38,893 bases of DNA from Haloplanus ruber (lineage in GTDB: Archaea; Halobacteriota; Halobacteria; Halobacteriales; Haloferacaceae): contig NZ_JANHDK010000008.1 in assembly GCF_024494725.1 (NCBI RefSeq), forward strand, positions 1-38,893. The letters are read 5' to 3'. Positions 122 through 24,213 of the stretch are shown here, piece by piece. The stretch's first letter is position 1; each line of letters starts with the position of its first letter. The notes under the pieces were generated by a model, which worked only from the letters and a program-made list of their open reading frames with translations, searched no databases and was not told where the DNA came from. A program made the translations under genes and the position numbers.

Positions 122-696
122 ACGCTCAACTGTTTAACCAGACCATCGATGGACCGACACAGGTCGACGGATCTGGCAAAGTCTGTTCTGGTTACAAAGG
201 TCAAGAGCCGCCGCGAAACAGTCGTTCTCGCGGCGGCTCGTCGCGCACTGGCCGATCACGCTGGCGAGGGCGTCATGGTGACCAGCTGACGCTCGTCGCG
301 GCGTGCCGCGACTCGCTTCGTGTGATTCGCGGACAGCGTGGGATCGACTACGAAGGCGATCTTGAGCCAGTGATTCAGGAAGCTGAAGACCTCTCCCAGC
401 GGCTGGGAGAGGTCTGGACAGATGGACTCCAAGCGTACCGCGAGATGGATCGGGATCACCGAACGGTCGTCCACAAAGAGAGGTACGTATCGCCTGACGG
501 AGTCCACATTAATCAGGCAGAATGTCTGTTTTCGCTTGTTCAACCGTGGCTGCGGAAGTTCCGCGGCCTGTCCAAGCAAGGCTTGGAGCAGGCCGCTCAT
601 ACATTCGGGATCATTAGATCGCTGAATCTCACAGGCGCATCCGTCGATATCACCATTGACTGCCTTGTTATGGGGGCTTTCCGTAGTTCTACATAA
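121..696 (+). pseudogene. IS1595-type (ISXO2-like) transposase, 5'-truncated remnant
   Basis: The frame is open from a TGA at 118-120 to the TAA at 694-696 and has no convincing start codon near its beginning; the first usable GTG is at 322. The translation carries landmarks of ISXO2-like DDE transposases: a QVD...GYKGQE segment near its start, TDG in the middle (about 418-426), and a C-terminal block HINQAECLFS...PWLRKFRGLSKQGLEQ (about 508-590), which in this family holds the last catalytic residues. The N-terminal zinc-ribbon region is missing, and the residue after the first catalytic Asp is Gly rather than the usual Glu. It is almost certainly inactive. Its 3' end shares a 22-base run with position 31652. 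Confidence 0.7.
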
Positions 697-3779: not shown

Positions 3780-4203
3780 GGCTCTGTTGAAATACTTGAA
3801 AAATTATATATTCTAACTAGTCGCGGTCAGTACAGGGTTCTAATCTCCCATTCAGGAACCTTCGAGAATATCCTGTGTCCCCAAAGTATCTATATTCTCT
3901 CTGGATAGGTACACTATGAACGATACTCAAAACCGTAGTGGAGAACAGTTATTGATAGGGGTCGGAGGGCTGGCCTTAGTAATCCAATTAATCGTGTTTC
4001 AGAACAGTCTCGGAATAGTGAATAATTCGGGAGTTTCTGGAACGCTTGGAGACATTGTGAGTGGCGGATTGTTGCTTGTGGCAGTGGTTTGCCTCGCCGG
4101 AGGAGTGTACCTCCGTCAGCGTGGTTCTTGATGGATACGCAGCTCTCATCCACCGGCTGTTTCAGTCGATGATGTATCTGAAGAATAGGATTTCAACGGA
4201 GGC
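3780..4203. mobile_element. Non-autonomous element 1 (about 424 bp) with terminal repeats and a small membrane-protein gene
   Basis: The left end begins GGCTCTGTTGAAAT at 3780. The right end is an inverted, slightly decayed copy ending TTTCAACGGAGGC near 4203. Both ends match element 2 (5714-6275): the segments after the left repeat (ATTCTAAC...GCGGTCA.TACAGG) and before the right repeat (GCAGCTCTCATC.ACCGGCTG...TGAAGAATAGGATTTCAAC) are shared, while the middles differ. No transposase is present. Terminal repeats of this type are typical of haloarchaeal insertion sequences. Confidence 0.6.
3916..4131 (+). CDS. Small two-helix membrane protein (element 1 cargo)
   Basis: The product is 71 residues. 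Hydrophobic stretches at about 12-33 and 45-64 look like two membrane helices, separated by a short polar loop, with a basic C-terminus (LRQRGS). A TATATT box at 3890-3895 sits about 23-26 bp before the ATG, as for a leaderless transcript. The gene is the sole cargo of a terminal-repeat element. No family is recognised. Its analogue in the related element 2 encodes a different small membrane protein, so membrane-protein cargo may be a theme of these elements. Confidence 0.6.
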   Translation: MNDTQNRSGEQLLIGVGGLALVIQLIVFQNSLGIVNNSGVSGTLGDIVSGGLLLVAVVCLAGGVYLRQRGS

Positions 4204-4238
4204 GTATGTTTTTATGAATGACTGACAGTCTAATTGGC

Positions 4239-4943
4239 ATGAACCGCCGCGATTATTTTGCTGTTCTCGGGATCGGGATAGCCGGTACTGCAGGATGCAC
4301 TAGTATTCCAACTGGGTTCGACCCCACAGAAAGCGAGCCGACAGAGAGCAATGAATTGATTCGAGAAACCTACGAAGGAGACGGATCGGCATTAAATGAG
4401 TTCTCCGTAGAAAATGAGGGAGCAATATTATTTGAAGTTGAAAGCGATGATCGTCTCTCTGCTGATGTTATCCCCGCCGATGAAGATGGCAGTGGTACGG
4501 CTTTCACAATAGAATCCCGGTTATCCCGTATCAGAAAATACAGTGATATTGAAACCGGGGAATACGCGTTAGATGTTACTACCAACGGAGAGTGGAAGAT
4601 CATCATTGAACAGCACCCTCCACTTGGTCTGAAATCCGTCGAAACGCCCGAATTCCCACTAACAATTAGCTCGGAAACCCCGGATGTATTTGGACCATAC
4701 AACTTTGATGGGTTCATGAGTGCCAGTACATATTCAACGGCTGTCTCCGGTTTGAATTTCATTGACGAGTCAGGAGAATGGGTAGAGTCGGTGGGGCACG
4801 GTCAGACTCACCTTGGAGAAACCCGTGACCAAGGAACAATAAATGTTGAAGGACCACATTGGCTAGTAGTTACGATGAATTTGGCCTTGACTGGAGATGA
4901 TGATCCAGTAGAGTTTGAAGTGACATTAGAAGCACCAAGCTGA
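4239..4943 (+). CDS. Secreted Tat-type lipoprotein, unknown function
   Basis: From the ATG at 4239 the product is 234 residues with an N-terminal NRRDYF twin-arginine motif, a short hydrophobic stretch and a lipobox GTAGC (Cys near residue 20). It is therefore likely exported by Tat and lipid-anchored outside the membrane. The mature part is acidic and Thr/Ser-rich near the anchor, then probably beta-rich. An in-frame ATG at 4218 exists, but the TTTTTAT at 4209-4215 lies about 27 bp before 4239 and favours that start. The TATA box lies just past the right end of element 1. The next gene is also a lipoprotein. No named family is recognised. Confidence 0.75.
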   Translation: MNRRDYFAVLGIGIAGTAGCTSIPTGFDPTESEPTESNELIRETYEGDGSALNEFSVENEGAILFEVESDDRLSADVIPADEDGSGTAFTIESRLSRIRKYSDIETGEYALDVTTNGEWKIIIEQHPPLGLKSVETPEFPLTISSETPDVFGPYNFDGFMSASTYSTAVSGLNFIDESGEWVESVGHGQTHLGETRDQGTINVEGPHWLVVTMNLALTGDDDPVEFEVTLEAPS

Positions 4944-4961
4944 TTGAGAGTTGTTTATAAT

Positions 4962-5504
4962 ATGAATCGTAGAGCGATACTATCTGTTTCACTGGTCAGT
5001 CTTGCTGGGTGTACAGTAACTATTGGCGACAGTTCTGATGATTCAGTTGAAGATGGTGAGTCGGCAGAGAGTGGTGCAGAAAGCGACGAATCTAATGATC
5101 AAGAACAGCAGGAAGTAGAAGTAGAGTCAACTGAAGACACTCAAGAACCAGAAGATCTCGACCGTCCTGCGGTTGAGAGTATGTCTGTCCGATACGATGA
5201 AGCGTGGTTACACCTTTCACGGACATACAAAACACCAAACTACGGTGATGAATTTAGAATAACTGAGCGATGGACTATCGAGAGTGATGACATCACTTTG
5301 GAAGAAGAACGAGAGAAGAATATTGAACCAGAAACAGAGAGTGATGTGGTTTTGATTGGTCAGAGTATCTTATTTTTGGATCGGTGGGATAACAATATAC
5401 AGACGGGAGAGTACGATGTGACACTCGTGCTTGAAGCTCCGAATGGTGATCAGAGTGAACCTGTCTCTGAATCTGTATCAATCACGGAACAGGCTAGTCA
5501 GTAG
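4962..5504 (+). CDS. Second secreted lipoprotein, unknown function
   Basis: The product is 180 residues from ATG 4962. It has an Asn-Arg-Arg start, a short hydrophobic segment and lipobox LAGC (Cys near residue 17), followed by about 50 very acidic Asp/Glu/Ser/Gln-rich residues acting as a linker. The rest is a compact domain (about 70-175) that looks beta-rich. It starts 18 bp after the stop of the preceding lipoprotein, so the two are likely co-transcribed and may act together at the cell surface. A TTG at 4944 is a less likely start, as it would push the signal sequence inward. Confidence 0.72.
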   Translation: MNRRAILSVSLVSLAGCTVTIGDSSDDSVEDGESAESGAESDESNDQEQQEVEVESTEDTQEPEDLDRPAVESMSVRYDEAWLHLSRTYKTPNYGDEFRITERWTIESDDITLEEEREKNIEPETESDVVLIGQSILFLDRWDNNIQTGEYDVTLVLEAPNGDQSEPVSESVSITEQASQ

Positions 5505-5604
5505 ATAATCGTTTTCCGACAAAGGTCCAGTAGTTTCAGGGTCTGATTTCATTTCGATAACGGGGTCTTCATTTCGAAGGCGGTGGGAGTCAATCGGTCT
5601 GTGT

Positions 5605-5713
5605 TTTGAGTTTCCGATTTTGTTAAGAAAGTCGGAAACTCAAAGGACTAAGCCGTCCAAACAACGGTACGAATTATTTAAAGAGATGAGCGAGTCAACA
5701 AATTCGGAAACTC
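5605..5713. repeat. Inverted repeat TTTGAGTTTCCGA plus a third half-copy
   Basis: TTTGAGTTTCCGA at 5605-5617 is perfectly inverted at 5632-5644 (14-bp spacer). A further half-site, TCGGAAACTC, at 5704-5713 directly abuts the left end of element 2. The 5505-5713 gap otherwise shows no gene. The repeats could be a terminator for the lipoprotein operon or debris of another element. Confidence 0.5.
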
Positions 5714-6275
5714 GGCTTTGTTGAAATCCTATTCTTCAGACATATTCTTGCCTGAAACAGCCGGTCGATGAGAGCTGCGAATTCTTCACTCGCAATCGTG
5801 AAGTGAAAACAATTTTATGTTTAAATCAATATGGGCGGGAGTACTCCGAGTATTCAACTGGCGACCTGTAGAACGACGCTGAGAAGAGCTATGAGGGCAC
5901 AAAGACCCATTACAAGAATAGCGTAAAACGGCACTTGGAACTCTGATGGGTCAGTCGAGAATATCTTGTACAGTGATGTAGTGACAAGCAGGGCTCCACC
6001 ACCACACACCAACATGACAAAAATACCAAAACCATCCGTTGTTCCCGAAATAAAGCCGTCCACGCCAATTGCTATTCCCAGAATTGCTGAAAACCCATAA
6101 AAGACAGATGGTCGGTTCATAACGGATTAAAATAGAAGGAGCGTGAAAAATTGTCCGCTCTGTATGACTTTCAACGGCCAGTGAGTAGTTCATCTGTACT
6201 GAGCGATCTGTGTGTCACCTGTATTGACCGCAACCGGGTTAGAATGTATCAACTATTGAGGATTTCAACAGAGCC
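5714..6275. mobile_element. Non-autonomous element 2 (about 562 bp) with terminal repeats and a small membrane-protein gene
   Basis: One end starts GGCTTTGTTGAAATCC at 5714 and the other ends GGATTTCAACAGAGCC at 6275. It is related to element 1 in inverted orientation: the outer 60-70 bp on each side align, but the cargo gene differs. The two elements point in opposite directions, so the intact outer repeats (3780 and 6275) are inverted and enclose the lipoprotein pair like a composite element. Confidence 0.6.
5854..6120 (-). CDS. Small three-helix membrane protein (element 2 cargo)
   Basis: The product is 88 residues with hydrophobic segments at about 6-24, 32-50 and 65-86 and a short loop with KIFSTDPSEFQ between the last two. 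It is predicted as an integral membrane protein. It is the only gene inside element 2. No family is recognised. The length resembles that of the 71-residue cargo of element 1, but the sequences are not obviously related. Confidence 0.55.
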   Translation of the reverse strand: MNRPSVFYGFSAILGIAIGVDGFISGTTDGFGIFVMLVCGGGALLVTTSLYKIFSTDPSEFQVPFYAILVMGLCALIALLSVVLQVAS

Positions 6276-6306: not shown

Positions 6307-7104
6307 TCAGTCAAGATTCTCAACCTTCTGTTCGAGCCGCTCAAGTCGCTCGTTGAGATCATCGTCAGGCTCAGCAGCGGGCTCGTTCAGTGGGCGAACA
6401 TCCTCAAGGGCGGTGTCAACGCGATCGTCGTCAGCCTCGCCGTGGAGATATAGCTCCGCGCGGTCGTTATACAACTCTCGGAGCGTGCTCGCAGCGACGC
6501 CAACGTCATCGGCGACGTCGGCAAGTGATTCACCACTGGCGACTCGCTCCATGCCGGCGCGTACCCGGAGGTACTCTTCCGGGTCGACCCGGAGATGTCC
6601 GTTGACAACCTCAAACCCTGTCGGCGGCCGGCCGGTCCACTTACCGGCCTCTCGGGCAGCGTCGATCCCCGACTGGATTCGGCGAACCTTCTGTGTTTGT
6701 TCAATCCGAGCGAGGTCACCCATGAGCCCGGCGATCATTTGGGTGACCGCTTGATCGACCATACTGTCGTCGACATCAAGCTCGAGGCCAACTTCGAGGT
6801 CCCGGACGCTCGTCTCGTGTTCAAGAGCATACTGCAGAAAGTTGTGGATCTCGCCACCACCGAGCCGAGAGAGTCGAGACAACTCGTGTACGATGACGAC
6901 ATCAACCTCGCCGTTAGCGATCGCCTCGCGGAGCCGACGGTACTCTGTACCCCCCTCGCTGTCAGACCCTGAGATAATATCAGCGAACCGGTCGATGGTG
7001 GCGTCAGGATATTCGTCCGCGACGAAGTCCTCGAGCTCATGGATCTGTCGCTCGTGGTCTTGGCGGTCAGTTGAGACGCGGGCATATAGCGCGACGTGAG
7101 TCAT
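6307..7104 (-). CDS. Serine recombinase (resolvase/invertase family)
   Basis: The 265-residue protein starts with the resolvase fold: YARVSTDRQ with catalytic Ser11 and Arg9, and ELSRLSRLG (about 77-85) supplying the other active-site arginines. A long helix follows, then GRPPTGFEV and a helix-turn-helix near GVAASTLRELY (about 203-213). The C-terminal 35 residues look like a coiled coil. This order fits small resolvases and invertases rather than large serine integrases. It probably resolves plasmid multimers or acts on local inverted sites. A TTTTAAAT box near 7130 lies about 26 bp before the ATG. It is transcribed divergently from the GIY-YIG-like gene, with only 75 bp between the starts. 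Confidence 0.88.
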   Translation of the reverse strand: MTHVALYARVSTDRQDHERQIHELEDFVADEYPDATIDRFADIISGSDSEGGTEYRRLREAIANGEVDVVIVHELSRLSRLGGGEIHNFLQYALEHETSVRDLEVGLELDVDDSMVDQAVTQMIAGLMGDLARIEQTQKVRRIQSGIDAAREAGKWTGRPPTGFEVVNGHLRVDPEEYLRVRAGMERVASGESLADVADDVGVAASTLRELYNDRAELYLHGEADDDRVDTALEDVRPLNEPAAEPDDDLNERLERLEQKVENLD

Positions 7105-15544: not shown

Positions 15545-16480
15545 CTGCTTTGTTGAATCCGATGACGGCGCGGGGATTACTGTTTGAGAGCTTGTTCGAG
15601 GTTGTAGACTGCGGCGGTCAACACGAGTTCACGGAACTCGCGGTACCAAGCGCGAGGGGGGACAGCGGGGCCGAACCGACGCTTGATAGCCGAAAAGGCG
15701 GTCTCGGCCATCCACCGCTGGCCGTATAGCTCGCTGTCCAACCGTGCGTTGTGGGCGTGATCGTACGCAGCGAACAGCCGGTGACGCAGCAAGGGCCGGA
15801 CTCCCCCTAGACGGAGGGCGCCCCGGAGAGATTGGTCGTCATAGCCTTTGTCGCCGGCGAGACTCTCGATTTGTCGGTGTTACGAAGGGCAACTCGACGG
15901 CCAGTTTGGGTGTCGTGAGGCCAGTGTGCCGAGCAGTGAAGATCGAGGATGGCACACGAATCTGTATCGACGAGCGCCGTCGTTTTGAGCGTCCGTATGC
16001 GGCGATCCGAGCGGTGTTGGTAGTGTCTCGATGCCGTTTCGCGGTCGAAGAACGTTGTATCGATGGCTCCGTGCGAGCCCGGATCGCAGATGGTCGCAGA
16101 CTCACGGAGGAAGCCACGCCACACAGACATGGGAACCCTCTCAAACGACCGGTACAGCGTTGAGGGTGCGGGAAATGCCGTTCGAGCGAGCTGTAACAGT
16201 CCACAAACCCGATCCATTTCACTCGCCCAGTCAACAATCTCACGGTACGTCGCTCCCATATGAACCCGCAAAAAGTGGAGCGTGACATGCTTCCAGCCGG
16301 GAAATCCGTGGCCAGTCGGATCACTCACCGCCGTTGGAGTGGCGGCACAGCGCTTTTGAGCCAGCGACGCGGCTTGCTTAACGAAGCGGAAGAGGTGTTT
16401 GGACACATTCGGCTCTTCCGCTTCGCTTCCACCTTCAGAGCGACGCTATCCCGACGCCTTCTGCGGATTCAACAGAGCAG
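15545..16480. mobile_element. IS5-family insertion sequence, 936 bp, decayed
   Basis: It is bounded by CTGCTTTGTTGAATCCG (15545-15561) and its inverted copy CGGATTCAACAGAGCAG (16464-16480), differing at one base. It contains one frameshifted transposase gene. No clear target duplication is visible. Confidence 0.8.
15577..16406 (-). pseudogene. IS5-family transposase, broken by a frameshift
   Basis: Reading from 16406, the N-terminal part runs through GAIDTTFFDRE and ALVDTDSC, which carry two catalytic Asp residues. The frame then slips near 15870: the reading should continue IESLAGDKGYDDQSLRG in another frame, ending with AETAFSAIKRRFG (catalytic Glu) and the stop at 15577. A single lost base, plausibly in the AAA of CGACAAATCGAG, explains it. 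The layout is the DDE pattern of haloarchaeal IS5 elements. It is non-functional unless the break is a sequencing error. Confidence 0.82.
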
Positions 16481-23873: not shown

Positions 23874-24213
23874 GATGGAACAAGGCGCTGTCTTCCGGTT
23901 TCTATCACACAGTAGTTTCGATCTTCGGTCACACTCAAACAACCGAACCGTCAGATCTCGGTAGTCGTTTCTGACCTCCTGAAGTGCCGGAGTTAAGGGT
24001 GTAAAACGCCAGTAAAGGGACTGACCAGAATCTACGCTAGCAACGAATTCAGCCTAACTTAACGCGACCCTCTAAACAGATAGTGCTTACCTTGACCTGT
24101 TGTACTCACCCTCTGTATCTCGCACGCCGATCCTATCAGTTCCTAAGGATTTCAACAGAATCAGTGAAATTGTAGCCAATTATTTGCTTCCCACTAGTGA
24201 TTTCCACTCAAGC

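Follow-up and report, generated by a model that had tools for sequence, protein, structure and literature searches.

The two short elements of the Haloplanus ruber window (the whole stretch of DNA that was analysed, 38,893 nucleotides of contig NZ_JANHDK010000008.1), E1 (3780-4203, forward strand) and E2 (5714-6275, reverse strand), are very probably mobile insertion cassettes (MICs): small foreign genes between end modules of the ISHla2 type, without a transposase of their own, that would be mobilised in trans and whose cores would be exchanged. By end module we mean the terminal repeat (17 bp) of an ISHla2-type IS5 element together with the adjoining subterminal sequence of about 40-50 bp. 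The shared ends and the length of the target site duplications (TSDs) point to the ISHla2-type transposase as the enzyme that would act on the cassettes in trans. The swapping of cores between pairs of ends would come about largely through homologous recombination or gene conversion limited to these short modules, and a gene may become new cargo when it lies next to an element and is flanked by compatible ends.

The left end of E1 is at 3780 and its right end at 4203; the inverted E2 has its left end at 6275 and its right end at 5714. The left module of E1 (3780-3835, forward strand) comprises the terminal inverted repeat and a subterminal part and ends ...GGTCAGTACAG, and that of E2 (6219-6275, reverse strand, 57 bp) ends ...GGTCAATACAG. 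Both right modules, at 4138-4203 (forward) and 5714-5779 (reverse, about 66 bp), are of the A type. The right parts of the two elements form inverted arms of 76 nt with 83% identity (4129-4204 and 5713-5788), the left parts arms of 38 nt with 79% identity (3780-3817 and 6238-6275). The first-pass annotation had given both shared ends a length of about 60-70 bp, which holds on the right (66-76 bp) and is somewhat too long on the left (about 57 bp); its description of different middles with one short membrane-protein gene each was correct. The middles are unrelated, and the single ORFs, at 3916-4131 in E1 and 5854-6120 in E2, both point to the same end type. With up to 2 mismatches allowed, the 14-bp end GGCTCTGTTGAAAT has 6 matches in the window, where 0.31 would be expected, and none of the shuffles gave as many; the Haloplanus ruber genome has 22 such ends and none of the reversed-pattern control. 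The consensus of the TSD-flanked cassettes and that of the transposase-bearing IS both agree with the ends of E1 and E2, whose right ends match the right-end consensus of the transposase-bearing units (GGCTCTGTTGAAATCCTATT.ttt.GAcAt.Ttt.c..ctgAAacagc), the E1 end at 4203 being degenerate (GCCTCC). Neither the flanks of E1 (ATCTTGGT/GTATGTTT) nor those of E2 (GGAAACTC/TCTCCAGA) form a target duplication, and tblastn with the 273-aa transposase described below as query found no transposase homology in the two cores. A lone end of a second type (GATTCTGTTGAAATCCTTAGGAACTGATAGGATCGGCGTG), with no convincing partner, lies at 24123-24162 of the window on the reverse strand.

On comparative evidence, elements with these ends are transposition products, because they are flanked by 8-bp TSDs far more often than expected by chance and because an ungapped empty site exists. 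Facing end pairs were collected from the loci sampled, mainly from one GTDB family and with A-type ends, and the flanking octamers were compared, with the expectation obtained by shuffling the flanks. The octamers match at 7-8 of 8 positions in 71 of the 165 adjacent facing pairs (0.5 expected); the 63 perfect 8-bp TSDs are all different and follow the pattern R......Y, with a purine first and a pyrimidine last. When the flanks of one cassette (L211:2852-3249) are joined, they give an ungapped alignment of 499 bp with an empty site in the Haloplanus ruber genome, and a 276-bp relative with the same ends lies in that genome between perfect 8-bp repeats (ACCTCGTC). Other copies and target duplications had been named as checks on the initial proposal. 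Copies with different middles are abundant, and the ends are present in 152 of the 170 genomes of the same GTDB family (zero for the control pattern); 8-bp duplications surround many cassettes with the same ends and are absent at E1 and E2 themselves. Multi-copy MITEs of 125 bp (e.g. L022:1393-1517 and L033:1501-1625) have the same terminal repeat, perfect 8-bp duplications and a further end subtype. A second cluster in the same genome (L004:7779-11344, corresponding to C4:122778-126343), in which such ends are interleaved with lipoprotein and small membrane-protein genes, resembles that of the window. Viral contigs gave 21 matches to a 17-base degenerate pattern, roughly as many, in our judgement, as chance would produce.

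The other check proposed was to look for a full-length IS that has these ends, and such an IS was found. The first two units are 1517 and 1586 bp long and encode a 273-aa DDE transposase of the IS5 family (Pfam DDE_Tnp_1, 2.3e-14; NCBIfam IS5, 213.8 bits at a cut-off of 140), annotated as ISHla2/ISHxa2 type in PLSDB plasmid records; 131 of 167 genomes of the family have it. The terminal repeat of the units is that of the cassettes, the transposase start codon lies 52 bp inside the left end, and TSDs agreeing at 7-8 of 8 positions surround 37 of 78 of them. The ISHla2-type transposase probably accepts ends of the E1/E2 type, because an A-type right end like theirs is found on several transposase units with perfect TSDs (e.g. 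L071, L149, L167 and L239); the unit L093 bears a second end type. In the Haloplanus ruber genome the cognate transposase is represented by remnants only (C4:350278-350406 and C4:113508-113880), and with these remnants and the lack of target duplications the two window copies look stranded. Three other partners were considered and rejected. The sole genome match to IS1595 (PF12762, ISXO2-like) is a fragment at window 376-555, within 322-696, that is not bounded by these ends; the ends near copies of IS6 (PF13610) differ and are GGCGGTGTTCA-like; and the IS5 remnant at window 15546-16479 is degraded, is 37-45% identical to the ISHla2-type transposase and has related but different ends (TGCTYTGTTGAATCC).

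Between E1 and E2 lie two lipoprotein genes on the forward strand, 4218-4943 (likely start 4239) and 4944-5504 (likely start 4962), both 100% identical in Halorubrum laminariae. The first-pass annotation saw them as framed by the outer repeats in the manner of a composite transposon, and the outer ends are indeed correctly oriented and nearly intact, while a target duplication is missing at the outer pair 3780/6275 (ATCTTGGT/TCTCCAGA). Composite movement would be possible in this element family, because Halorubrum sp. Atlit-26R has a 2994-bp unit (L188:1805-4798) with GTTCTGCC on both flanks that ends in a nested A-type cassette and holds homologues of both lipoproteins (57% for the second gene, and 29%); same-type end pairs with TSDs occur elsewhere, too (e.g. 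L197 and L163). It is nevertheless rather unlikely that 3780-6275 itself moves as such a unit, in which E1 and E2 would be the inverted modules on either side that carry the lipoprotein pair: apart from the missing outer TSD, no transposase is present inside, including both flanking modules, and the block 4138-5871, whose 100% identity to H. laminariae would otherwise speak for a composite, begins at the inner border of E1 and not at the outer end, on a contig that stops inside E2. Immediately next to E2 is a 109-bp inverted-repeat element (5605-5713, GAGTTTCCGA...TCGGAAACTC) with no evident coding capacity, copies of which are 77-89% identical in many Halorubrum genomes. The right end of E2 cuts into the conserved continuation AAAGCGAGC of this repeat, and the left-end side of E2 has probably been rearranged, because the normal continuation was not found beyond the other end of E2. 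A gene for a serine recombinase (Resolvase N-terminal domain; window 6307-7104, reverse strand) ends about 31 bp from the E2 left end.

Comparison of elements that share a core shows, at the level of the aligned copies, that cores and end modules are inherited independently. The E2 core is identical at 439 of 439 columns in a Halorubrum genome, whereas the end modules agree at 92 of 130 (70%; p=4e-27); the two sequences agree letter for letter over 448 bp. The same contrast between core and ends is seen in the pairs L245/L149, L177/L207 and the 276-bp element/L220, and the pair L243/L142 is reversed, with conserved ends and a diverged core; the remaining pairs compared gave no difference between core and end identity. 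One core of 157 bp occurs in 11 copies with several different end modules. L284 and L287 were considered as cores in unrelated ends and set aside, since truncated or diverged modules explain them better. In H. laminariae, 1734 bp are identical to window 4138-5871, that is, to the right module of E1 together with 4204-5871, beginning at the border of that module. At the position of E1 the E1 cargo is absent, and a different right end and a gene for a 154-aa membrane protein are found instead.

These mosaics would be explained most simply if cores were exchanged where the short end modules are homologous, by recombination or gene conversion, after arrival in new hosts that already held such elements. 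It is tempting to think of a dedicated step instead, in which cores are exchanged precisely, like cassettes, at the module borders. In seven same-core comparisons the left-hand breaks lie near TCARTACAG or a sequence close to it, and the right-hand breaks, in those comparisons that included an A-type right end, near TGC(G); the break in H. laminariae is at the same border, and the core that recurs 11 times between different ends would fit as well. We nevertheless consider such a step improbable: the cassettes have no recombinase linked to them, the pair L142/L211 shows that modules can be mosaic, and the border motifs are where the homology of the modules stops, so that short-tract gene conversion predicts similar borders.

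The cargo is diverse. Nearly all transposase units hold passenger sequence next to the transposase, and two units whose transposase DNA is 94% identical, both with perfect TSDs, have unrelated cargo. The 78 transposase-bearing units encode 54 distinct cargo proteins (best ORFs), 39 of which (72%) are predicted to be membrane proteins or lipoproteins, compared with 9 of 67 annotated plasmid genes of up to 220 aa (13%; Fisher p=3e-11), 15% of flanking ORFs of 55-220 aa and 14% of the best ORFs in shuffled intervals. Topology was called in all cases by the same simple hydropathy and lipobox rules, and across the counts made the membrane or lipoprotein share of the cargo was 59-72%. The transposase-less cassettes contain small membrane proteins, BrkB-like proteins, a CAAX protease, an SBF transporter and lipoproteins. 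Toxin-antitoxin pairs, regulators and enzymes occur in them as well, and the non-membrane cargo includes HicBA, an AbrB-PIN pair, an Lrp regulator accompanied by HalOD1, GNAT and a luciferase-like monooxygenase. The idea that the ends mobilise small membrane genes is thus borne out as a strong enrichment and has to be relaxed in that membrane cargo is a strong tendency and not a rule. By eye, the orientation of the cargo relative to the ends is not consistent across cassettes. A TSD-flanked unit of 1871 bp (L207:4635-6505) joins cargos that are found singly elsewhere (L177, L161), which suggests a fusion of neighbouring cassettes.

The bias most likely arises because cargo is retained when it encodes a surface protein of use to the host, such as one that keeps out viruses or competing elements; this is the weakest step of the proposal, and the basis for surface exclusion is a single published expression result. 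A still more far-reaching picture, an integron-like cassette economy in which one IS5-type lineage provides standard ends, cores are swapped precisely at the border motifs and cargo is selected as small surface proteins that alter susceptibility to viruses or mating, must be regarded as speculative and doubtful. The opposite view, that the bias is an artefact of sampling or prediction, could point to the simple rules and to the sampling of mostly one GTDB family and A-type ends; it is very unlikely, since the same rules give 13-15% in three controls and 59-72% in the cargo.

The cargo gene of E1 (3916-4131, forward strand) encodes a small membrane protein of 71 aa that has no match in Pfam, NCBIfam or PADLOC. 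Judged from its homologues, which are 48-65% identical and occur in 10 genomes (one further match is weak), and from a coding pN/pS of 0.30-0.56, the gene is real and under purifying selection. No ends of the cassette type bracket the homologues within 1.5 kb, which fits the capture of an ordinary gene by E1. The cargo of E2 (5854-6120, reverse strand) is a small membrane protein of 88 aa that is conserved across genera; the core of E2 is, as described above, 100% identical in a Halorubrum genome. Members of the protein family are found near such ends elsewhere, and one transposase-bearing unit, in Hrr. trapanicum, encodes a distant homologue. PADLOC gave no match for E2 and the two lipoproteins either, and neither the transposase nor E2 had a match in phage records. 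A reading of both elements as ordinary MITEs, or as one IS with internal deletions, in which the ORFs arose by chance, is therefore hardly tenable (internal-deletion forms of an IS whose transposase gene spans the membrane ORFs had been named as refuting the initial proposal), despite their small size and the 125-bp and 276-bp relatives with related ends, TSDs and no evident gene or a very short one: the cores have no transposase homology, the E1 ORF is conserved under purifying selection, which refutes this reading for E1, the E2 protein is conserved across genera, 14% of the best ORFs in shuffled intervals of the transposase units are membrane-like against 72% observed, and many other cargos match Pfam families.

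Both MICs and transporter ISs have been recognised as categories before (PMC3129680, PMC6542083); the term MIC is used in PMC3129680, and MIC231 of Bacillus cereus is an example (cited in PMC6542083). E1 and E2 share with MICs the IS ends, the absence of a transposase, the non-transposase gene inside and, as we infer here, the dependence on a transposase in trans. They differ in that the family is archaeal, of IS5 type and biased towards membrane proteins, with very many cargos per end family and exchange of cores and end modules. ISHla2-type units, with transposase and passenger gene between terminal repeats, resemble transporter ISs (tIS; PMC3129680), but their passengers are highly variable (the 54 proteins from 78 units sampled) and for the most part (72%) small membrane proteins or lipoproteins. 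ISHla2/ISHxa2 have the same transposase, GGCTCTGTTGAAATCCT ends and 8-bp duplications, and the 1193-bp ISHla2 carries a membrane ORF of 57 aa; E1 and E2, in contrast, have no transposase and other genes inside. HqIRS32 of Haloquadratum walsbyi, of the ISH2 type and described as the only MITE family with a likely protein-coding ORF (PMC3119063), is likewise a short transposase-free haloarchaeal element with one such ORF; cargo exchange is not described for it, and the comparison made here is by description. Hlac_3088, a transposon passenger gene of Halorubrum lacusprofundi, is upregulated in virus infection, and protection was proposed (PMC10544981). An ISHla2-type unit of Hrr. lacusprofundi (about G120:C1:341790-343593) encodes a 233-aa protein with an N-terminal signal and a C-terminal TM helix that fits Hlac_3088 in position and description; Hlac_3088 was reported as one among several virus-upregulated genes and not as a member of a cargo-swapping family. 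In the literature searched, mostly without subscription papers, we found no account of an ISHla2-type cassette family, its membrane bias or core exchange. The membrane bias and the core exchange are the unexpected features; the categories of MICs and transporter ISs were already known.

Passenger-carrying ISs and MICs have mostly been known as single cases, and here one archaeal lineage carries dozens of unrelated cargos, with an exchange of cores and ends that reaches between genera with identical sequence. The cassettes would represent a reservoir of uncharacterised haloarchaeal surface proteins that is marked by a simple DNA signature. They may also offer a tractable system for the capture of cargo by a simple transposon, in which virus protection by passengers, as proposed for Hlac_3088 (PMC10544981), could be tested directly.
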